NCBI RefSeq assembly: GCF_000244915.1
Contig: NZ_CM001442.1
Coordinates: 3,348,001 to 3,412,000, forward strand
DNA length: 64,000 bases
DNA from: Bradyrhizobium sp. WSM471
Lineage (GTDB): Bacteria; Pseudomonadota; Alphaproteobacteria; Rhizobiales; Xanthobacteraceae
Reading direction: 5' to 3'
The position numbers were made by a program, and so were the translations under genes. Under the pieces are notes generated by a model that saw nothing but the letters and a program-made list of their open reading frames with translations, made no database searches and was not told the origin of the DNA. Of this stretch, positions 19,435 to 29,431 are shown one piece after another (position 1 is the stretch's first letter; each line of letters opens with the position of its first letter).

Positions 19435-20493
19435 GTGTCGCAGAATCAAGCATCCAGCCCGGCCGACGCCAAGCCGACCACGGCCACCAGCCGCATCGTA
19501 GCGCTGATTCCCGGGATCCTCCTCTGCATCGCCGTGGCCGGCGTTTCGGCCCTGCTCGAACGGGCGGAATTGGGCGTCTTCGAACATCCCTATGTCGAGG
19601 CGCTGGTGATGGCGATCTTGCTTGGCATGGCCGTGCGCAGCTTCTGGAAGCCTGCGCCGCGCTGGCAGTCCGGCATCGCCTTCAGCGCCAAGCAACTGCT
19701 CGAAGTCGCCGTCATGCTGCTGGGGGCCTCGATCAGCTTTGCCGCGATCGCTGCGTCCGGCGTCGCGCTGTTGGCATCGATCGCAGCCATTGTCGTGATC
19801 GCGCTCAGCGTCTCCTTCGGCATCAGCCGCCTGCTCGGTCTCTCGACGCGGCTCTCGATCCTGATCGCCTGCGGCAACTCGATCTGCGGCAACTCGGCGA
19901 TTGCGGCGGTGGCGCCGATCATCGGTGCCAACAATGACGAGATCGCATCCTCGATCTCCTTCACCGCGATCCTCGGCGTGATGATGGTGCTCGGTCTGCC
20001 GCTGCTGATCCCGCTGCTGCAGCTATCGGCCACGCAATACGGTATCCTCGCAGGCCTCACCGTCTATGCCGTGCCGCAGGTGCTGGCCGCGACGGTGCCG
20101 GCCGGGCTCGTCTCGACGCAGATCGGCACGCTCGTCAAGCTGATGCGCGTGCTGATGCTCGGGCCGGTCGTCGTCGGCCTTTCGCTGACGGCCTCGCGCT
20201 GGCACAGCGACGCCAAGAAGACCAATGTCGGCTTTTTCCGCCTGGTCCCGTGGTTCATTCTTGGCTTCCTTGCGCTGGCGACCCTGCGATCCCTGGAGAT
20301 CGTGCCGGCCACGGTGGTCGGTCCGGTGACGAAGATCACCAGCTTTCTCACGGTGGTGTCGATGGCGGCGCTGGGCCTGGGTGTCGACGTCCGTGTGCTG
20401 GCCAATGTCGGGGGCAGGGTGACGGCGGCCGTGACGTTGTCGCTGTTGCTACTGCTCGGCATCAGCATCGCGCTGGTGCACTGGTTCAAGTAG
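19435..20493 (+). CDS. yeiH: YeiH-family (UPF0324) membrane protein, putative sulfate/sulfite exporter
   Basis: 352 residues with about ten transmembrane helices. Family blocks are EALVMAILLGMAVRSFWKP, ISRLLGLSTRLSILIACGNSICGNSAIAAVAPIIGA, and MAALGLGVDVRVLANVGGR. GTG start with GGGAGAG upstream. Family members are annotated as sulfate exporters, and in other genomes they lie near taurine/sulfonate genes. Here the next genes (on the other strand) are a sulfonate-type importer and an AsfAB-like redox pair, which supports a role in removing sulfite or sulfate. Transport itself is not shown by sequence. Confidence 0.85.
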   Translation: MSQNQASSPADAKPTTATSRIVALIPGILLCIAVAGVSALLERAELGVFEHPYVEALVMAILLGMAVRSFWKPAPRWQSGIAFSAKQLLEVAVMLLGASISFAAIAASGVALLASIAAIVVIALSVSFGISRLLGLSTRLSILIACGNSICGNSAIAAVAPIIGANNDEIASSISFTAILGVMMVLGLPLLIPLLQLSATQYGILAGLTVYAVPQVLAATVPAGLVSTQIGTLVKLMRVLMLGPVVVGLSLTASRWHSDAKKTNVGFFRLVPWFILGFLALATLRSLEIVPATVVGPVTKITSFLTVVSMAALGLGVDVRVLANVGGRVTAAVTLSLLLLLGISIALVHWFK

Positions 20494-20692: not shown

Positions 20693-21565
20693 CTAAATCA
20701 CATCCGCGAGCGAATGCCCGTGCAGCTCGATGTTCAGCCCCTGCATGCCCATGTCGTTGAGCTCGCCGCCCATCGCTTTGATGCTCTCCTCGCGGATCAG
20801 CGACATCAGTCCGCGGCGCAATGCAAGGAATTCCGACGACATCATCATCGACTGCTGCCGCGGCCGCTCCAGCGGGATCGGAATCTCCGCCTTGATCGAT
20901 CCGGGGCGTGCGGTCATGCAGTAGACGCGGTCGGACAGGAAGATCGCCTCGTCGATGTCGTGGGTGACGAACAGCACCGAGATCTTCAGCCGCTGCCACA
21001 TGTTGGTGAGGATCTGCTGCATGATGACGCGGGTCTGCGCGTCGAGCGCGCCGAAGGGCTCGTCCAGCAGCAACACTTTGGGTCCCGTCGCGAGCGCGCG
21101 GACGATGCCCACGCGCTGCTTCATGCCACCTGAGAGTTTCTCGGGATAATGCTTTTCGAAGGCTTCGAGGCCCGCGAGCCCCAGCAGCGTGCGCGCAGCG
21201 CGCTCGCGCTGCGAGCGCGGCATGCCGCGCATCTTCAGGCCGAACTCCACGTTCTCCCGCACCGTCTTCCAGGGAAACAGCGAATACTGCTGAAACACCA
21301 TGCCGCGCTCGGCGCTGGGGCCGTTCACCTTCTCGCCGTCGACGGTGACGATGCCCGTGGTCGGCTTGAGGAAACCCGCGACTGCATTGAGCAGCGTCGA
21401 CTTTCCGCAGCCGGAGGGACCGACGATCGAGACGAACTCGCCCGGATTCACATGAATCTGCGTATCGGTGACGGCTTCGACCGGCCCCTCGATGCTGTCG
21501 TAGCTGAGGGAGAAATTCCTGACTTCGATATGGCCCTGCGGTGCCTTGACAACGATCTCGCTCAT
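20693..21565 (-). CDS. ABC transporter ATPase, nitrate/sulfonate/taurine type
   Basis: 290 residues. Walker A GPSGCGKST at 49-57, Q-loop QQYSLFPWKTV, signature LSGGMKQR, Walker B VLLLDEPFGALD, H-loop VTHDID. The FPWKT Q-loop is typical of the SsuB/TauB/NrtD subfamily. A C-terminal extension of about 30 residues is Met-rich. The ATG overlaps the permease stop (ATGA). Partner of the permease and binding-protein genes upstream. Confidence 0.92.
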   Translation of the reverse strand: MSEIVVKAPQGHIEVRNFSLSYDSIEGPVEAVTDTQIHVNPGEFVSIVGPSGCGKSTLLNAVAGFLKPTTGIVTVDGEKVNGPSAERGMVFQQYSLFPWKTVRENVEFGLKMRGMPRSQRERAARTLLGLAGLEAFEKHYPEKLSGGMKQRVGIVRALATGPKVLLLDEPFGALDAQTRVIMQQILTNMWQRLKISVLFVTHDIDEAIFLSDRVYCMTARPGSIKAEIPIPLERPRQQSMMMSSEFLALRRGLMSLIREESIKAMGGELNDMGMQGLNIELHGHSLADVI

Positions 21566-22431
21566 CTTGACCTCCACGGCATCACCAATTGTCCGGCCCC
21601 CCGGATCAGCATGCTCGATCCGAGGCCGAGCACGCCGATCGCGATCATGCCGAGCGCAATGTCGGCATACTGGACCAGCGAATAGGCCTCCCAGGTGAAA
21701 TAGCCGATGCCGTACTGCCCCGAGATCATCTCGGCGGCGATCAGCGACACCCAGGCCACGCCCATGCCGACGGTGAGGCCAGTGAAGATGTGCGGGAGCG
21801 AGGCCGGAAAATACACGTCGCGGAAGATCGAGCGCTCCCGCGCGCCGAGACATTGCGCGGCGCGCACCAGCACGGGGTCGACCAGCGACATGCCGTGCAG
21901 CGTGTTGACCAGGATCGGGAAGAACGAGCCGAGGAACGTGATATAGACGATGCTCTGCTCGTTGGTCGGCCACAGCATGATCGCCATCGGCACCCAGGCG
22001 ATCGCCGGGATCGGCCGCAGCACCTCCGCCACGGGGAAGATGATCTCGTGGGCGAGCTTGAAGCGGCCCATGATCAGGCCGAGCGGCACGGCGACGATGG
22101 CCGCGAGCGAGAAGCCGAAGAAGATGCGCCGGCAGCTCAAGAGCACGTGCAGCAGGAATTTGGGATCGTGGATCGCCTTGGTGAAGCTCGCATAGACCGC
22201 GAGCGGCGAGGGCACGTTGGTGAAGCGCACGAAGAACACGACGCGATAGGTCGTCAGCAGATGCCAGACCAGCAGAAAAGCGAGCAGCGAGATGATGCCG
22301 ATCGCGGTCGCGCGCAGCCCGCCCCGGTTGAGCCGGTACCAGCGCAACGCGAGCGTGCCGAAGGAGGGTGGGGATGCGGGTGGCGTGGAGGCAGGCAAGG
22401 CGCTTGCCTCCGCGATTGCACTTGCCGGCAT
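21562..22431 (-). CDS. ABC transporter permease, sulfonate/taurine type
   Basis: 289 residues, six transmembrane segments, with an N-terminal Pro/Ala-rich tail. The EAA loop is AAQCLGARERSIFRDVYFPASLPHIFTGL. Subfamily marks LRPIPAIAWVPMAIMLW match SsuC/TauC. ATG 22431 lies 35 bp after the binding-protein stop. Forms the inner-membrane channel with the ATPase encoded next. Confidence 0.92.
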   Translation of the reverse strand: MPASAIAEASALPASTPPASPPSFGTLALRWYRLNRGGLRATAIGIISLLAFLLVWHLLTTYRVVFFVRFTNVPSPLAVYASFTKAIHDPKFLLHVLLSCRRIFFGFSLAAIVAVPLGLIMGRFKLAHEIIFPVAEVLRPIPAIAWVPMAIMLWPTNEQSIVYITFLGSFFPILVNTLHGMSLVDPVLVRAAQCLGARERSIFRDVYFPASLPHIFTGLTVGMGVAWVSLIAAEMISGQYGIGYFTWEAYSLVQYADIALGMIAIGVLGLGSSMLIRGAGQLVMPWRSR

Positions 22432-22466
22432 GCTGTCCTCGGGATGTCTGAGGAGGGCGGGACTGC

Positions 22467-23888
22467 TCACGTCTTGCCCCCGCCGACCGCCGCCTTCACC
22501 GCGTCGTCGAAGCCGAGCACCTTGCCGCTGGTCTTGGCGGCATAGGCTTCGGCGTCCTTCTTCAACAGGAACGGCGCAACCTCGCCATTGCCGACCGCGA
22601 AGAAAGCCTGGTCGGCGAACAGCTTGATGCCGCGGGTGGTATCGAAGACGTAGGCGACGTTGATCTTCTTGCCCTTGGCCTTGTAGTCGGCATAGGCGGC
22701 GAGCGTGCAACTGGCCGACGAGAAGGGCATGATGCCTGCCTCGTCGATCCAGACCTCGCCGGCCTTGCGCGGATCGGCAATCGGCTTCTTGCAGAAGGAG
22801 TCTTCGCCGGAGATCTCGTAGTTGCTGGCGCTCGCGAGCCGCGCGTCGTAGTCGAGCTTCATCTCGGCATAGGCTTTGCGGATGTAGCTGTCGTCGACCC
22901 ACTTCTTCGGGTCGAACTCCTTCATCCGGCCGAGGTTCTGCAGCACCTTGACGTCGGCCGCAGCGGCGTCGATCAGCGCCGGCTTGATTGAGGGATCGGT
23001 GGTCATGTTGCCGCTGGGGCCGAGGAAGATGTAGACGACCTCCTTGTTGATGCCGGTCCATTCCTGGATTTTCTCCGCGGCGAGCTTGGGATCGTCGCGC
23101 AGCCACTGATTGGCGGCGATCAGGGCCTTGAAATATGCGACGACGACCTCGGGATATTTTTCGGCGAAATCGGTGCGCACCACGATGCCGTGGAAGGTCG
23201 GCAGATTGGTCTCGACGCCGTCAAAGATCTTTCGCGCAAAACCGCGGAACGGCAGCAGCTCGGCGAACGGAACGAAATCGGCATGCGCGTCGATCTTCTT
23301 CTCCTGGAGATTGGTCGAGCCGACCTCCGGGCTCTGGCTGACCAGCTGGAAGAAATCCGACGCGTAGCCGCGGTCCTGCATCGCCTTGAGCACCATGCCG
23401 TGCGCGGCCGAGCCAAACGGCACGCTGACGAGCTTGCCCTTGAGATCCGCGAGATCATAGTAGGGCGAGTCCTTGTGAACGACGATGCCGTTGCCGGAGC
23501 CCGACAGGCTGTAGGCGGCCATGCCGACCAGCCGGCTCTTGCTCTCCGGATTGCTGTCGAACGTGAAGCCGTTCACGATCAGCGGATAGTCGCCCATCAT
23601 GCCGATCTGCAGCTTGTTCGCCATCATCGCATTGGTGACGGGCGGACCGGAGGTGAAGTTCTGCCACTCCAGCTCGAACTTGATGTTGGCGTATTTGCCG
23701 TCCTTCGGCAGATATTTTTCGAGGAGATGGAGCTGGCGGATGACGACGCCGGCGGTCACCGTGTTGGTCGTGGTGTCCTGCGTTCCAATGCCGAGCGTGA
23801 CAGTTTCCGCCGCGGCCGGCTGCGCGAGGAGAAGCGCCAGCGACGTCACCGACATCGCGATCGAGAGCGTGGGAAGATGGCGGACCAT
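22467..23888 (-). CDS. SsuA/NrtA-type periplasmic binding protein fused to a NosL-like domain
   Basis: 473 residues from the third of three clustered ATGs, the one with GAGGA at proper spacing; starts at 23894 and 23900 are possible. Sec signal peptide ending at AQPAAAE (about 28). Residues about 30-350 are an NMT1/SsuA-like fold (LQIGMMGDYPLIV, DLKGKLVSVPFGSAAHGMVLKAM). The last ~100 residues do not belong to that fold. They read FSSASCTLAAY ... VAYVFDTT ... FFAVGNGEVAPF ... KDAEAYAAKTSGKVLGFDD, which resembles the copper-chaperone NosL family, including an upstream Cys. The substrate is likely a sulfur compound, judged by neighbours. The NosL similarity is from pattern only. Confidence 0.8.
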   Translation of the reverse strand: MVRHLPTLSIAMSVTSLALLLAQPAAAETVTLGIGTQDTTTNTVTAGVVIRQLHLLEKYLPKDGKYANIKFELEWQNFTSGPPVTNAMMANKLQIGMMGDYPLIVNGFTFDSNPESKSRLVGMAAYSLSGSGNGIVVHKDSPYYDLADLKGKLVSVPFGSAAHGMVLKAMQDRGYASDFFQLVSQSPEVGSTNLQEKKIDAHADFVPFAELLPFRGFARKIFDGVETNLPTFHGIVVRTDFAEKYPEVVVAYFKALIAANQWLRDDPKLAAEKIQEWTGINKEVVYIFLGPSGNMTTDPSIKPALIDAAAADVKVLQNLGRMKEFDPKKWVDDSYIRKAYAEMKLDYDARLASASNYEISGEDSFCKKPIADPRKAGEVWIDEAGIMPFSSASCTLAAYADYKAKGKKINVAYVFDTTRGIKLFADQAFFAVGNGEVAPFLLKKDAEAYAAKTSGKVLGFDDAVKAAVGGGKT

Positions 23889-23974
23889 TCTCATCCTCAT
23901 TCGGTTGGATGTGCTGTGGTTGCCATGATTGGGTGAGGGCGTGGGCAGGGCAAATCCGGAATGAGCGCCACAGT

Positions 23975-23989
23975 CGATTAGTTGCCGGG
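23975..23989 (-). promoter_or_regulatory. Copy 1 of the cluster motif [CA]AACTAAT[TC]G
   Basis: On the minus strand CCCGGCAACTAATCG; the core CAACTAATCG ends 86 bases before the chosen start (74 before the first ATG at 23900) of the binding-protein gene. Same orientation and nearly the same distance to the first ATG as copies in front of the reductase and flavoprotein genes. Confidence 0.55.
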
Positions 23990-24069
23990 AAAAGTTGATT
24001 GCATAGTCCTTGGGCAGTCCTGCACTATAAAGCCGCTTGCATGGGCACCAGCCCTGGTCGCAAGCTCGA

Positions 24070-24843
24070 TCAGTCGGCCGCCTGGCCTCGCATCTCTTCC
24101 AGCACGTCGGACCGGCAGACCACGATCTGCGAGCGCTTTGTCAGCACGATCCCCTTTTCCTGCATGCGCTTCAGGCTGATCGTGACCCATTGCCTGGTGG
24201 CGCCGACCATGTGGGCGATATCGGCATGGGTGAAGGCGGCCGCGATCACCCGGCCGTCGGCGTCATCGACGCCATAGAGGTCGACGAGATGCAGCAACAG
24301 ATGCGCAAGGCGCTGTGTGATCGAGCGCGTTCCCAGCATCTGGGCCAGCGCCGAATAGCACTTGCCCTTGAAGGTCAGGCCTTCAATCAGGCCGATCGCG
24401 AGGTTCGGAATCTCGACCGCAAGGGATCGCAGCTCCTTTCCGGGCAGATGCACCACGCTGCAATTGCTGGATGCAACGCCGGACCATTGATGCACGGTAC
24501 CTTCGAACACTTCGGGGCCGCCGACGAAATTGCCGACATGCCAATAGGCCAGCGTGATCTCGCGGCCGAGCGGGGAGGTGTAGAACACCCGGATACGGCC
24601 GCTCTCGATCAGCCAGATACCGTCATGCTTGCCACCCTGGCTGAATAGCGTCTGGCCACGGTTGAGCACTTTTCGGCGGCCCTGCTTCAGCACCAGCTCC
24701 CGTTCGCGCTGGCTGAGCTTGTCCATCAACGCCGGCGGTCCGCCGATCCATTGCTGGTTCTCGGTGAGCAGCAGCGAGGAACCGCCCGCAGGCCGGGCCG
24801 TTGCGGGGCCCGTCCCGCGAACCACATTGGCCGCCTGCAACAT
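24070..24843 (-). CDS. Crp/Fnr-family transcriptional regulator
   Basis: 257 residues. Cyclic-nucleotide-binding-like beta barrel at about 65-165 (LFSQGGKHDGIWLIESGRIRVFYTSPLGREITLAYW), then a winged HTH (FTHADIAHMVGATRQWVTISLKRMQEKGIV, about 208-238). It lacks the four N-terminal Cys of FNR, so it probably does not hold an oxygen-sensing [4Fe-4S] cluster. GGAGG precedes the ATG. First gene of the minus-strand run leading to the ABC importer, and the natural candidate to bind the repeated AACTAAT motif in this cluster. Confidence 0.88.
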   Translation of the reverse strand: MLQAANVVRGTGPATARPAGGSSLLLTENQQWIGGPPALMDKLSQRERELVLKQGRRKVLNRGQTLFSQGGKHDGIWLIESGRIRVFYTSPLGREITLAYWHVGNFVGGPEVFEGTVHQWSGVASSNCSVVHLPGKELRSLAVEIPNLAIGLIEGLTFKGKCYSALAQMLGTRSITQRLAHLLLHLVDLYGVDDADGRVIAAAFTHADIAHMVGATRQWVTISLKRMQEKGIVLTKRSQIVVCRSDVLEEMRGQAAD

Positions 24844-24912
24844 CGTCTGCCTCCGGAACGTTCAAACCGTTCTAAAGAGGAGCAATGTCCGTGCCAGATG
24901 GCCGCGTTCTCC

Positions 24913-25016
24913 CTGTCATCGCCCGCGAAAGCGGGCGATCCAGTATTCCAGAGGCGTCAGTGGGAGACGGTGAGGGCGCGGCCTACTGGATTGCCCGCTT
25001 TCGCGGGGAATGACAG
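24913..25016. repeat. Intergenic palindromic repeat, same family as the one near 51.2 kb
   Basis: Left arm GTCATCGCCCGCGAAAGCGG followed by GCGATCCAGTA; right arm TACTGGATTGCCCGCTTTCGC followed by GGGGAATGACAG (imperfect inverse). It fills most of the 219 bp between the Crp-type and DUF971 genes. Confidence 0.65.
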
Positions 25017-25062
25017 CGGTGTTTGTGGCCGCTGGGGTGCCAATCTCACGGCTGCGTCCTGC

Positions 25063-25359
25063 CTAGCGCCCCGCCAAGCTCAGCAAATACGGCTTCGGGT
25101 AAATCCCCCGATTGTGCCCATCCGAGAACGAGATGTTCAGCCCGTAACCGAGATCGCCGATCTCGGTGATTGCGATGCCTGGAAACCGCTCGGGGAAGCG
25201 GCCGTCGAAGCGGGCGCGGGTGCAGTGGGCGCATTTGCAGGAGAGGCGGAGCGTTTCCGCCGGCAAGTCCAGCGTGTCGTCCTCAGCGGTGCGGACGCGC
25301 AGCGTCGCGAGGTCGGCGCTTGCTTCGTAATCTGCCACGGTCGGTGCCACCAAGGTCAT
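25063..25359 (-). CDS. DUF971-family protein
   Basis: 98 residues. SCKCAHCTRARFDGRFPERFPGI carries a CxCxxC group, and the C-terminal ISFSDGHNRGIYPKPYLLSL matches DUF971, the small domain also found at the N-terminus of gamma-butyrobetaine hydroxylases and next to Mrp/ApbC-type Fe-S carriers. The ATG at 25359 has GGAGA eight bases upstream. A metal-binding or Fe-S assembly role is inferred, which would suit the neighbouring iron-sulfur proteins. Confidence 0.8.
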   Translation of the reverse strand: MTLVAPTVADYEASADLATLRVRTAEDDTLDLPAETLRLSCKCAHCTRARFDGRFPERFPGIAITEIGDLGYGLNISFSDGHNRGIYPKPYLLSLAGR

Positions 25360-25400
25360 GACGTGTCTCCGAGCCTTCTCTACGTTGCCGCAGTGCTGCG

Positions 25401-25419
25401 GCGATAGCAACTAATTGCC
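25401..25419 (+). promoter_or_regulatory. Copy 2 of the cluster motif (long form)
   Basis: GCGATAGCAACTAATTGCC. The 20-base context GGCGATAGCAAYTARTTGYC also fits the reverse complement of the copy at 26364, with 17 of 20 positions identical. It lies between the divergent DUF971 and ferredoxin-NADP reductase genes, 42 bp before the former. Confidence 0.6.
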
Positions 25420-25481
25420 AGGCGCAGGTGCGCGACGCTGATCTTCGCTGCCTGCTGTTCGATCATCGCCTACGAAATGTG

Positions 25482-25491
25482 AAACTAATCG
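25482..25491 (+). promoter_or_regulatory. Copy 3 of the cluster motif
   Basis: AAACTAATCG followed by ACCG, 76 bases before the reductase ATG. It agrees with copy 1 at AACTAATCGAC. Confidence 0.5.
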
Positions 25492-25567
25492 ACCGGGAAT
25501 TTCAGTTCGGCGTTGCCGGATTCCTGTCTCTCCGAAACCTTGTGCGCAATCGAGGTCAGGAGAGACA

Positions 25568-26341
25568 ATGAGCGCATTTCAGAAGGAAACGGTCCTGTCG
25601 GTCAGGCACTGGACCGACAGCCTGTTCAGCTTCACCGCGACGCGCGATCCGGGCTTCCGCTTCCAGAACGGCCAATTCGCGATGATCGGGCTGGAAGTCG
25701 AGGGCAAGCCGTTGCTGCGGGCCTACAGCATGGCGAGCGCCAATCACGAGGAGGCGCTCGAGTTCTTCTCGATCAAGGTGCAGGACGGTCCGCTGACCTC
25801 GCGCCTTCAGAAGATCAGAGAGGGGGACGTCATCCTGGTCGGCCGCAAGGCCACGGGCACGCTGATCACCGGCAATCTCATTCCCGGCAAACGCCTGTTG
25901 CTGCTCTCGACCGGAACGGGGCTCGCGCCTTTCGCCAGCCTGATCAAGGACCCCGACGTCTACGAGAATTACGAGACCATCGTGCTCGCCCATGGTTGCC
26001 GCCAGGTCTCCGAGCTCTCCTATGGCGAGCACCTCGTCGAAGGCTTGCGCGATCACGAGTTCTTCGGGCCGCTGATTCGGGACAAGCTCGTCTACTATCC
26101 CACCGTTACCCGCGAGCCGTTCAGGAATCGCGGCCGCATCTCCGACCTGATCGCGTCGAACCAGCTCTTCGACGACATCGGTCTATCAGGCCTCGATATC
26201 GAGACCGACCGCATCATGCTGTGCGGCAGCCCGGCGATGCTGGAGGAACTTCCCGCGATGCTTTCTGGGCGCGGGTTTGTCGAGGGCAATCACAGCCGGC
26301 CCGGCCATTTCGTGATCGAAAAGGCCTTTGTCGAGCGCTGA
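25568..26341 (+). CDS. fpr: Ferredoxin-NADP+ reductase
   Basis: 257 residues, the bacterial Fpr subclass. FAD-binding RAYSMAS at about 54-60, NADP-binding LLLLSTGTGLAPFASLI near 115-130, C-terminal VEGNHSRPGHFVIEKAFVER including the family's C-terminal FAD-stacking region. It passes electrons between NADPH and ferredoxin or flavodoxin. TCAGGAGAG precedes the ATG. The flavoprotein and ferredoxin genes follow at 105 and about 1,900 bp, so a chain NADPH to ferredoxin to flavoprotein is the obvious inference. Confidence 0.9.
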   Translation: MSAFQKETVLSVRHWTDSLFSFTATRDPGFRFQNGQFAMIGLEVEGKPLLRAYSMASANHEEALEFFSIKVQDGPLTSRLQKIREGDVILVGRKATGTLITGNLIPGKRLLLLSTGTGLAPFASLIKDPDVYENYETIVLAHGCRQVSELSYGEHLVEGLRDHEFFGPLIRDKLVYYPTVTREPFRNRGRISDLIASNQLFDDIGLSGLDIETDRIMLCGSPAMLEELPAMLSGRGFVEGNHSRPGHFVIEKAFVER

Positions 26342-26355
26342 GGCGCAAATCGCAG

Positions 26356-26384
26356 CCCGGCGACAACTAATTGCTATCGCCGGG
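26356..26384. promoter_or_regulatory. Copy 4 of the cluster motif inside a perfect 8-bp stem
   Basis: CCCGGCGA / TCGCCGGG arms enclose CAACTAATTGCTA. The core CAACTAATTG (26364-26373) ends 72 bases before the flavoprotein ATG. The stem could be a transcription attenuator or terminator after fpr, or extra DNA contacts of the regulator. Confidence 0.55.
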
Positions 26385-26445
26385 ACGCCTGCTGAACAAA
26401 TCTGATGCAAAGGCGCCGGACCTGCCGGCGAGCCAGGAGCAAGCG

Positions 26446-28188
26446 ATGTCACTAGATCAGATCGTCGACGGACTTTCGGAGGTTTCCTGCGACGTGCTCG
26501 TCATCGGCGGCGGCACTGCCGGCCCGATGGCGGCGTTGAAGGCGAAGCTGAAGAATCCGAAGGCCAACGTCGTCCTGCTCGAGAAGGCCAACGTCAAGCG
26601 CTCCGGCGCGATCTCGATGGGCATGGACGGCTTGAACAACGCCGTCATTCCCGGCTACGCGACGCCGGAGCAGTACACCAAGGAAATCACCATCGCCAAT
26701 GACGGCATCGTCGATCAGAAGGCGGTCTACAAATACGCGCAGAACTGCTACTCGATCATCGAGGAACTCGACAGTTTCGGCATCCGCTTCCTGAAGAACG
26801 AGAACGGCGACTACGCCGTCAAGAAGGTGCACCACATCGGCACCTACGTGCTCCCGATGCCGAACGGCGAGACCGTGAAGAAGGCGCTGTATCGCCAGCT
26901 CCGTCGCGCCCGCATCCTGATCTCCAACCGCTACATGGCGACGCGGCTCCTCAAATCCGCCGACGGACGTATTGCCGGCGCGATCAGCGTCAACACCCGC
27001 ACCGCCGAGATGCTGGTGATCAAGGCCAAGGCCGTCATCCTGTGCATGGGCGCCGCCGGCCGTCTCGGCCTGCCGACCTCCGGCTACATGTTCGGCACCT
27101 ACGAGAACGCTGCCAATTCCGGTGACGGCTATTCCATGGCCTATCACGCCGGTGCGGCACTGGCGAACCTCGAATGCTATCAGATCAATCCGCTGATCAA
27201 GGACTATAACGGCCCGGCCTGCGCCTATGTCGCCGGTCCCTTCGGCGCCTTCACCGCCAACAACGAGGGATCGCGCTTCATCGAATGCGATTACTGGTCC
27301 GGCCAGATGATGCTGGAGTTCTACAACGAGCTGCTGTCCGGCAAGGGCCCGGTGTTTCTCCAGCTCAAGCATCTCCATCCCGACACCATCTCGGAGATCG
27401 AATCGACGCTGCACAAGGTTGAGCGTCCCACACGCGGCCTGTTCCAGCAGGGGCGCGGGGTCGACTACCGCAGCGAGTCGATCGAGATGCATATCTCCGA
27501 GATCGGCTTCTGCTCCGGTCACAGTGCGTCGGGCGTGTTCGTCGACGACAACGCGCGCACCACCGTGCCGGGCCTCTATGCCGCCGGCGACATGGCCAGC
27601 GTGCCGCACAATTACATGCTAGGTGCCTTCACCAACGGTTCGGTCGCCGGCATCGACGCGATGGAATTCGCGGACAATCACGACTTCGCGGAATTCGACG
27701 CGGCCGATGTCGCCAGCGAACGTGACCGCGTCATGGCGCCGACCAAACGCGAGGACGGCATTCCGCCGAACCAGATCGAGTACAAGACCCGGCGCCTCGT
27801 CAATGACTATCTCCAGCCGCCGAAAGTCACGCGCAAATACGAGCTCGGCATGCGCCGGCTCGCCGAAGCGAGGGAGGACATGCAGGAGCGCATGATCGCG
27901 CGCAATGCGCACGAGCTGCTCCGCGCGCTCGAAGTCCAGTCGATCATGGACTGCGCGGACATGGCAGTGCATGCCTCGCTCTACCGCGAGGAAAGCCGCT
28001 GGGGCCTATACCACTGGCGGACGGATTTCCCGGAGAAGGACAACGAGAACTGGTTCTGCCACACGCTGCTGAGCAAGCAGGACGGCAAGATGACCAGCGA
28101 GAAGCGTGCCGTGGAGCCCTACATCGTACCGATCGCCGACGATGAGAAGGATCTCTACGACAAGCAGCGCATCCGCGCGACAGCCTGA
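26446..28188 (+). CDS. asfA: AprA/AsfA-like FAD oxidoreductase
   Basis: 580 residues. FAD-binding VLVIGGGTAGPMAAL at 18-32; later FAD block VPGLYAAGDMASVPHNYMLGAFTNGSVAG near 380. The domain order is that of the fumarate reductase / adenylylsulfate reductase alpha superfamily, and the gene is paired with an AprB-like ferredoxin. This combination matches AsfA-AsfB of Pseudomonas putida S-313, needed to release sulfur from arylsulfonates, better than dissimilatory AprA, because sulfate reduction genes are absent and a sulfonate-type importer is adjacent. CCAGGAGC precedes ATG 26446. The symbol is by analogy; substrate unproven. Confidence 0.75.
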   Translation: MSLDQIVDGLSEVSCDVLVIGGGTAGPMAALKAKLKNPKANVVLLEKANVKRSGAISMGMDGLNNAVIPGYATPEQYTKEITIANDGIVDQKAVYKYAQNCYSIIEELDSFGIRFLKNENGDYAVKKVHHIGTYVLPMPNGETVKKALYRQLRRARILISNRYMATRLLKSADGRIAGAISVNTRTAEMLVIKAKAVILCMGAAGRLGLPTSGYMFGTYENAANSGDGYSMAYHAGAALANLECYQINPLIKDYNGPACAYVAGPFGAFTANNEGSRFIECDYWSGQMMLEFYNELLSGKGPVFLQLKHLHPDTISEIESTLHKVERPTRGLFQQGRGVDYRSESIEMHISEIGFCSGHSASGVFVDDNARTTVPGLYAAGDMASVPHNYMLGAFTNGSVAGIDAMEFADNHDFAEFDAADVASERDRVMAPTKREDGIPPNQIEYKTRRLVNDYLQPPKVTRKYELGMRRLAEAREDMQERMIARNAHELLRALEVQSIMDCADMAVHASLYREESRWGLYHWRTDFPEKDNENWFCHTLLSKQDGKMTSEKRAVEPYIVPIADDEKDLYDKQRIRATA

Positions 28189-28217
28189 CCCGCCGCACAA
28201 ATACTAGGAGACATACG

Positions 28218-28451
28218 ATGCCTCTCGCTTCCTATCAGACATCGGTTCCGGTGGTCGTCGACGACGCCAAATGCATCGCGGACAAGGGCTGCACCGTGTG
28301 CGTCGACGTCTGTCCGCTCGACGTACTGCGGATCAGCGATATGACCAACAAGGCCTACATGGCCTACGACGAATGCTGGTACTGCATGCCCTGCGAGGCG
28401 GATTGCCCGACCGGCGCCGTCACCGTCAACATTCCCTATCTCCTGAGGTAG
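28218..28451 (+). CDS. asfB: 2x[4Fe-4S] ferredoxin, AprB/AsfB-like
   Basis: 77 residues with two cluster motifs: Cys19, 25, 28, 32 (CIADKGCTVCVDVC, a longer first gap than in standard ferredoxins) and Cys53, 56, 59, 63 (CWYCMPCEADC). The CWYCxxC run resembles AprB. Begins 29 bp after the flavoprotein stop with TAGGAGA ahead of the ATG. It should be the direct electron partner of the flavoprotein. Confidence 0.88.
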   Translation: MPLASYQTSVPVVVDDAKCIADKGCTVCVDVCPLDVLRISDMTNKAYMAYDECWYCMPCEADCPTGAVTVNIPYLLR

Positions 28452-28453
28452 CC

Positions 28454-29431
28454 ATGGCGAGCCCGTTCGAATCCTACGACGATCTCGAAGATGCCGACGA
28501 GCGGCTCCAGGCCGCCGATCCAGGGGAGCGCCGCGTTGCCATCATCGCGCTCGGCCATTCCGGCGATCCCGCCGCCGTCGGGCATCTCGCCAAAATGGTC
28601 GCCGATCCCGATGCCGGCGTCCGCCAGCAGGTTGCGATGGCGCTTGGCGAGTTCGACGGGCCGGAGGCCGCGAGCGCGCTGGTGAAGCTGCTGGTCGATC
28701 CTGAGAGAATCGTTGCGTCCGCCGCGGCCGACAGCATGGCGGAGTTCAAGGATCCGGCTTGCGCCGAGATCATCCTGCCGCTGGTTAGGCATGCCCACGC
28801 CTTCGTCCGCATGGGCGCGTTGCGCGCGCTGAAGGAGCTGCGCTGCAGGGATACGCTGAAACCCGCGCTGGAAGCGCTCCAGGATTCCGATGCCGCCGTA
28901 CGGGTGCAGGCGATCGGGGTGATCGGGTTCCTCAAACTGGAGGAATCCATTCCGGCGCTGACCGCGCTGATCAACGATCCCGACGCGCATGTGCGCCGTG
29001 CCGCTGTCAGCGCGCTCGCCTTCTCGCAGATGAAGCCCGCGGCCGAGATGATCACGCGCGCGTTGAAAGATTCGGACTGGATGGTGCGGGAGATGGCCGC
29101 GGAAACGCTGGGCCTCAACGTCAACGGCTCGATCGCCGTCGACCCGCTCATCGCTTCGCTCACTGACGAGTTCTGGCAGGTGCGTCTGAAGGCAATCCGC
29201 AGCCTTGGCCGGATGAAAATCGAGCGCGCGGTTCGCCCGATCGGCAATTGCGTCAATCACGACCAGGCCAATTTGCGGAAAGAGGCGGCTGCTGCGCTCG
29301 GCGAGATCGCCCACCACGACGGCGAAGCCTTCCTTGCCGTCATCGCCGACGATCCCGATCCCGAGGTGCGCAAGAACGCGCGCTGGGCCCTTCAGCAGAT
29401 CGCGGCCCGAAAAGCGCGGGCGGGGGCATAG
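28454..29431 (+). CDS. HEAT-repeat protein
   Basis: 325 residues made of about nine tandem HEAT/PBS-lyase-type repeats of roughly 31 residues (for example DPDAGVRQQVAMALGEF, DSDAAVRVQAIGVIGFL, DPDAHVRRAAVSALAF, DPDPEVRKNARWALQQI). No catalytic motif, signal or membrane segment is seen. ATG two bases after the ferredoxin stop with GAGGTAG as ribosome site, so it is surely co-translated with it. Such proteins act as scaffolds or chaperones; a role in assembling or docking the flavoprotein-ferredoxin pair is inferred. Confidence 0.88.
   Translation: MASPFESYDDLEDADERLQAADPGERRVAIIALGHSGDPAAVGHLAKMVADPDAGVRQQVAMALGEFDGPEAASALVKLLVDPERIVASAAADSMAEFKDPACAEIILPLVRHAHAFVRMGALRALKELRCRDTLKPALEALQDSDAAVRVQAIGVIGFLKLEESIPALTALINDPDAHVRRAAVSALAFSQMKPAAEMITRALKDSDWMVREMAAETLGLNVNGSIAVDPLIASLTDEFWQVRLKAIRSLGRMKIERAVRPIGNCVNHDQANLRKEAAAALGEIAHHDGEAFLAVIADDPDPEVRKNARWALQQIAARKARAGA

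Follow-up and report, generated by a model that had tools for sequence, protein, structure and literature searches.

What is a relative of adenosine 5′-phosphosulfate (APS) reductase doing beside an importer of the sulfonate type? The question is raised by a locus of Bradyrhizobium sp. WSM471, the genome of which is a single contig of 7.78 Mb (NZ_CM001442.1). We analyzed a stretch of 64 000 nucleotides from it (positions 3 348 001 to 3 412 000), hereafter the window, to which all coordinates refer unless another locus is named. A sequence-only reading had described here an importer of the sulfonate type together with a redox pair resembling AprA and AprB and an NADPH-type reductase, and this description stands. 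The locus is an example of a conserved, often plasmid-borne and sulfur-linked module containing a flavoprotein that is a sister of APS reductase. The gene content hints at a pathway that imports a sulfonate, releases sulfite and deals with the sulfite formed, and sulfonate-type sulfur acquisition is probably the role of the module. That the flavoprotein and its ferredoxin are themselves the sulfite-releasing enzyme is a more tentative proposal, which we rate at slightly below even.

The module occupies two divergent units between ~20.7 and 29.4 kb, separated by a gap of 208 bp. The plus-strand unit encodes a ferredoxin-NADP reductase (Fpr, 25568..26341; PF00175, PF00970), a flavin adenine dinucleotide (FAD) flavoprotein (26446..28188), a 2×[4Fe-4S] ferredoxin of 77 amino acids (28218..28451; PF12838, 33.8 bits) and a HEAT-repeat protein (28454..29431; PF13646, 189.6 bits; HEAT part of NF010374, 89.2 bits), with gaps of 104, 29 and 2 bp. 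On the minus strand the order is a DUF971 (GBBH-like_N) protein (25063..25359; PF06155, 48.1 bits), a Crp/Fnr-family regulator (24070..24843; PF00027, PF13545), a substrate-binding protein (SBP, 22467..23900), an SsuC/TauC-type permease (21562..22431; PF00528, 85.2 bits) and an SsuB/TauB-type ABC ATPase (20693..21565; Pfam and NCBIfam matches), with gaps of 219, 169, 35 and −4 bp. All the genes named in the earlier reading are open frames, the set recurs in distant genomes, and every start chosen between 20693 and 29431 is an ATG; the ferredoxin frame is overlapped by a longer open frame in the frame of the HEAT gene. Pfam names each gene above cut-off with the single exception of NosL on the tail of the SBP, while several NCBIfam models fall under theirs, including that for Fpr (NF008178, 140.5 against 390 bits).

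The flavoprotein is central to the question. It belongs to the NCBIfam family PRK08275 (NF006131, 1061.2 bits against a cut-off of 587), and its closest named relatives are found in Bradyrhizobium. The best match in the Protein Data Bank is the alpha subunit of the 3′-phosphoadenosine 5′-phosphosulfate (PAPS) reductase of Methanothermococcus thermolithotrophicus (MtPAPSR, 8a8o; PMC10322725). This match covers most of the length, with E = 4e-61 (3e-83 for a family profile), and outranks APS reductase and succinate dehydrogenase. In each of two trees the window family joins AprA, with support of 99/98 and 96/95 and with a PAPSR-like protein of Ilyobacter included in the first; this is the sole joining that is stable. 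The sequence-only reading had proposed placing the flavoprotein against the fumarate reductases, and it does not group with them. The catalytic motifs HYxMGG and GANRxG of FrdA and SdhA are absent from all 10 aligned rows of the family, and on this ground we reject fumarate or succinate chemistry. Given this absence, the kinship with AprA and PAPSR, the AprA-like residues and the CWxC motif of the ferredoxin, the family name ‘fumarate reductase/succinate dehydrogenase’ is, as judged from sequence, misleading.

The likeness to MtPAPSR extends to the whole assembly, since both are alpha/beta pairs of an FAD flavoprotein and a 2×[4Fe-4S] ferredoxin. Active-site His359 (in a Gly-His359 motif) and Asn64 align with their counterparts in AprA and PAPSR, and the CWxC motif provides the AprB-type tryptophan, which has been proposed for electron transfer between the clusters and FAD in MtPAPSR (PMC10322725). 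The window pair differs from MtPAPSR in a substituted substrate arginine, discussed below, in an extra loop and in the shortness of its ferredoxin. The alignment of the window family contains an invariant loop H(H/R)xGxYVLPMP. The partners differ too, being HEAT and DUF971 proteins and a sulfonate-type importer in place of sulfate-activation genes. AprAB shares the sister position and the CWxC ferredoxin, but its models score far under cut-off (AprA 163.2 against 641.75 bits, AprB 32.5 against 135.65) and the window ferredoxin lacks the AprB-type tail.

How general is the module? We searched 299 genomes taken across the phylum with NF006131 at its curated cut-off, and found the flavoprotein in 15, the source genome included. 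We then compared 20-kb stretches around the other 14 flavoprotein genes, with one APS-reductase locus as control. Ferredoxin, HEAT and DUF971 genes are near the flavoprotein in 14/14, and SBP, permease and ATPase genes in 13/14 (the exception being L052). Thus the genes do occur together in many genomes, a check that the earlier reading had asked for. The Crp-type regulator is found in 7/14 and Fpr in 6/14. A second set comprises the best 80 of 589 confirmed named loci in GTDB, with presence scored by thresholds that we set; as the first query row came from Cupriavidus, Burkholderiales and Pseudomonas are over-represented in it. Here the ferredoxin is present in 80/80, with its CWxC tryptophan kept in every one, HEAT in 77/80 (the three misses being loci that end early), a GntR regulator in 79/80 and DUF971 in 66/80, while SBP, permease and ATPase are present in 53, 52 and 56 of the 80 (some of the ATPases may be unrelated). 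From these neighbor counts the core is flavoprotein, ferredoxin, HEAT and usually DUF971, the importer being common, not universal. The ‘five extra parts’ of the sequence-only reading are therefore a misnomer, as HEAT and usually DUF971 belong to the core.

Within Bradyrhizobium the flavoprotein is matched at E 1e-100 in 73 of 117 genomes, two of these (G361, G464) having fragments only, and in the best 30 loci ferredoxin, HEAT, Fpr and DUF971 matches adjoin it in 30/30. There are two flavoprotein lineages in the genus (G390, G451, G456 and others), 90–100% and 74–76% identical to that of the window, and among the genomes listed three have two full-length copies.

Plasmid records with a flavoprotein match number 198. 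Among the best 60 there is a drop in identity from ~54% (H48) to 27% (H52), the two being separated by three partial matches of higher identity. The high-identity group comprises rhizobial plasmids and those of Methylocystis, Methylobacterium, Burkholderiales, Acinetobacter, Acidithiobacillus caldus, three cyanobacterial genera and two actinobacteria. The 16 annotated loci that we examined in this group all have the ferredoxin and all have HEAT repeats, counting a fusion in Tsukamurella. There, and in Nonomuraea, flavoprotein and HEAT repeats are fused in one protein (1568.1 and 1586.5 bits with NF010374, cut-off 1196; HEAT_2 94.8 and 108.5 bits). In three cyanobacterial loci a gene for an Mrp/NBP35 Fe-S carrier stands beside HEAT at the usual place of DUF971 (domains checked in two). 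Loosely read, 9 of these 16 loci carry another sulfur-linked gene at a distance of up to ~12 kb. One rhizobial plasmid locus is near a nodA-type gene. Beside the modules of Nostoc and Methylocystis (L055, L061) there are genes for a GNAT acetyltransferase and an amidase, a possible clue to the substrate. A search of viral contigs for relatives found none.

The importer points to a sulfo-compound. The model of the SBP (mean predicted local distance difference test score, pLDDT, 83.6) has TauA and SsuA as its top fold matches, and permease and ATPase belong to the families of SsuABC and TauABC. The SBP differs from those of SsuABC and TauABC in an additional NosL-like C-terminal domain, and the SsuA_fam model falls under cut-off (118.8 against 163.5 bits). 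The NosL match of the tail is slightly under its Pfam cut-off (23.3 against 24 bits); it reaches E ≤ 0.01 in 18 of 36 SBPs, and a profile of the tail finds NosL (7og7) at E 0.0012. NosL is absent from the fold list of the whole SBP, a list that hardly probes the tail. The tail had been read as a metal-handling part. Across 20 sequences the best candidate ligand column is a histidine in 10, and no cysteine or methionine column reaches 10; with ligands not conserved, a role as metal chaperone is not supported. Convergent with the importer, after a gap of 199 bp, is a gene for a YeiH-type putative sulfate/sulfite exporter (19435..20493, plus strand; PF03601 231.5 bits; TIGR00698 under cut-off at 147.7 against 232.6). 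The earlier reading was right that it adjoins, although it lies outside the 20693–29431 range given there. Homologues are near the module in L048–L051 and two cyanobacterial loci, a variable association.

How might the components work together? The TauA/SsuA-like SBP and SsuBC-type transporter would, judging by fold and gene families, import an organic sulfonate or a close sulfo-compound. By homology Fpr would give NADPH electrons to the small ferredoxin, from the clusters of which they would reach the flavoprotein FAD by way of the conserved tryptophan, on the model of APS reductase. The pair would then free the sulfo group as sulfite, plausibly via a flavin N5-sulfite adduct like that of APS reductase, and the sulfite would be assimilated and the surplus exported. 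The fusions point to a structural or docking role for the HEAT protein, as a subunit of the flavoprotein, and the replacement of DUF971 by Mrp/NBP35 in cyanobacteria suggests that DUF971 helps to deliver Fe-S clusters. Sulfonate sulfur acquisition with the pair as the sulfite-releasing enzyme is the best explanation that we can offer for the locus, held tentatively and with not quite even confidence. Reductive chemistry through the N5 adduct is possible yet doubtful. The boldest form of the proposal is rather unlikely to hold: a widespread oxygen-independent desulfonase, in which an APS-reductase-derived pair, held by the HEAT protein, releases sulfite reductively from sulfonates with NADPH electrons.

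A number of observations weigh against this explanation. Leu250 occupies, in all 10 aligned rows, the position of the arginine by which AprA binds the sulfate of APS, and Tyr219 replaces an AprA tryptophan. The step from a sister of APS reductase to a reductive desulfonase is one that we infer, and the lost arginine is the strongest argument against it. The C–S bond of plain sulfonates is far stronger than the S–O bond cut in APS. The model of the flavoprotein has a mean pLDDT of 58.5 and was set aside. Fpr is absent from 8 of the 14 sampled loci, the importer is missing or under our thresholds in about a third of the best 80 GTDB loci, and in ~7 of the 16 annotated plasmid loci, again on a loose reading, sulfur genes are limited to the module itself. 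Lastly, the monooxygenase SsuD is found above cut-off in 12 of the 15 module genomes.

The presence of SsuD also fits the rival that survives best, in which the pair supplies electrons to a C–S-cutting O2 monooxygenase encoded elsewhere in the genome. This is the published picture of asfAB, in which the pair hands electrons to such an oxygenase (PMC4267179), and in some loci genes for luciferase-like, Rieske or TauD oxygenases do lie within ~10 kb. Yet no oxygenase is a constant neighbor, SsuD is not above cut-off in the source genome (where there are ten weaker matches) or in G012, and the known relatives of this APS-reductase-type alpha subunit are catalysts in their own right rather than carriers. 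We consider electron supply of this kind unlikely, if well worth keeping in mind. In A. caldus a different donor is possible for the pair itself, as FdxA and a large glutamate-synthase-beta-like oxidoreductase (L057:10574-14035) are at the place of Fpr.

Could the pair be an assimilatory or detoxifying reductase of APS, PAPS or another sulfo-nucleotide? A placement as sister of both AprA and PAPS reductase and the retained tryptophan, histidine and asparagine would all be consistent with that. The models nonetheless remain under cut-off, as given above for AprA and as found for PRK06854, the MtPAPSR type (281.6 against 557 bits, compared with 843.6 for the Ilyobacter homologue). Moreover the sulfate-binding arginine is lost and the substrate loop replaced, the annotation of the 16 plasmid loci includes no ATP sulfurylase or APS kinase, in which they differ from the PAPSR-like locus of Ilyobacter, and the source genome has PAPS_reduct-family genes elsewhere. 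On the cut-offs and the arginine we set this reading aside as improbable. There is a similarly slim chance that the module imports and converts a non-sulfur oxyanion or small molecule, its sulfonate look deriving from the transporter family: nitrate, bicarbonate, thiamine precursors and pyrroloquinoline quinone are further ligands of the SBP superfamily, and 34 of 36 SBPs have a match to Pfam Phosphonate-bd, but sulfonate binders head both SBP fold lists and sulfur genes and sulfite exporters recur near the module.

Is the window pair then AsfAB? The asf systems of Pseudomonas putida S-313 and Cupriavidus metallidurans CH34 share with it a flavoprotein, a ferredoxin, an SsuA-type SBP and the link to sulfonate sulfur (PMC4267179, PMC2864759); the regulator of the P. 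putida system is LysR, in contrast to Crp/Fnr in the window. AsfA and AsfB of CH34 are Rmet_4334/5 (PMC2864759). The CH34 genome (G333) has no flavoprotein of the window family, the best score being 86 bits with the protein (a 592-amino acid SdhA-type frame) and 55.5 with the profile. We located Rmet_4334/5 by interpolation among six TauD genes with published tags (PMC2864759), the start of the record being rotated with respect to the tags; this gives ~923–925 kb, with a leave-one-TauD-out error of ~10 kb estimated by hand. The parts read of this 2.58-Mb replicon were 760–856 and 886–940 kb. A fitting two-gene pair of flavoprotein and [4Fe-4S] ferredoxin is at 927.9–929.9 kb (100% match to NC_007974.2); there is also a different FAD/Fe-S set at ~895 kb and a TcuAB-like pair near 794 kb. 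The direct neighbors of the fitting pair are amidohydrolase and fatty-acid desaturase genes, with no LysR gene, and its assignment to asfRAB is therefore weaker.

In comparison with this CH34-type pair, the window pair appears to be of a different kind. The flavoproteins are 25% and the ferredoxins 31% identical, and the CH34-type ferredoxin has CQTC in place of CWxC. The families do not form one clade in either tree, although an approximately unbiased test does not reject a single clade (p 0.124); the CH34-type branch is very long (3.6–3.9 changes per column) and its position differs between the trees. With no family member in CH34 and a different pair there, we have dropped the identification of the window flavoprotein as AsfA proper. 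The label ‘AsfAB-like’ is right in part, an AprA/AprB-like pair being supported and a place in the AsfAB family not. An Azospirillum relative of the CH34 pair resembles asfABC, with its genes ordered flavoprotein, ferredoxin, SBP, ATPase, permease and amidohydrolase, and with LysR genes some kilobases upstream. No HEAT or DUF971 gene was seen beside the CH34-type pair in L199, L206 or L207. In Sinorhizobium americanum a CH34-type pair directly precedes a window-type module. Since the two pairs differ yet share similar islands, such islands are served by two different flavoprotein/ferredoxin pairs. The CH34-type family, with SsuA-type importer and amidohydrolase neighbors, is often found on plasmids of rhizobia and Azospirillum (L199, L206, L205).

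The sulfonate link as such is not new, as organosulfonate uptake and assimilation have been predicted for a module on A. caldus plasmid pTcM1 (PMC12375680). That module shares the flavoprotein family (61.5% identity), ferredoxin and HEAT, and differs in a GntR regulator, in having FdxA and the large oxidoreductase for Fpr, and in an importer some kilobases away. We found no description of a HEAT/flavoprotein/sulfonate module in the open-licence literature, although PMC12375680 describes part of one. What is new here, as far as that literature shows, is the family assignment, the HEAT fusions, the exchange of DUF971 and Mrp, the regulator site and the distinction from the CH34-type pair. Sulfur in soil is mostly organic, and sulfonates are one of its major forms (PMC4267179). 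Across proteobacteria, cyanobacteria and actinobacteria, and on rhizobial plasmids among others, a sister family of APS reductase is tied to sulfonate import and, in several lineages, to the export of sulfite. An oxygen-independent desulfonase, if true, would stand beside the monooxygenase route, and would suggest a direct chemical role for asf-type pairs rather than one as electron carriers. Because the module has a defined core, and a single product and a regulator site are predicted for it, the question can be tested directly.

That site concerns the regulator, which is Crp/Fnr and so, as the earlier reading had it, of a class other than LysR. The palindrome GCAACTAATTGC at 25407..25418 is a candidate Crp-type site, and a copy with one mismatch (26363..26374, a pattern match) lies between the Fpr and flavoprotein genes. 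The pattern GCAANTWATTGC occurs in 9 of 10 loci with the Crp-type regulator, at 12 sites in 251 kb (the window contributing 64 kb). Of two further alphaproteobacterial loci one has it, and of the remaining 92 again one (1 site in 1.9 Mb). These are counts for a pattern picked after viewing the same loci, four of the ten Crp-type loci being from Bradyrhizobium. For the looser GCAANNNNTTGC the window is unremarkable, with 3 occurrences against 1.04 expected. From the palindrome in the gap between the two divergent units, the regulator would control both. In the source genome GCAANTWATTGC occurs at four places. One is a perfect palindrome copy ~130 bp before an FdxA-like ferredoxin gene (L215:10136-10147); beside two others no sulfur gene was recognized by eye, and hence no regulon was found. 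Two cyanobacterial modules encode a LysR regulator of 670–680 amino acids (L056:9646-11661, L223:7388-9424), and the C-terminal half of that in L056 resembles an SBP-like domain (NMT1_2, slightly under cut-off), which suggests a sensor–regulator fusion. Between the regulator and DUF971 genes of the window (24918-25008) there is an inverted repeat with a CCCGCGAAAGCGGGC-type arm, like a dispersed intergenic repeat.

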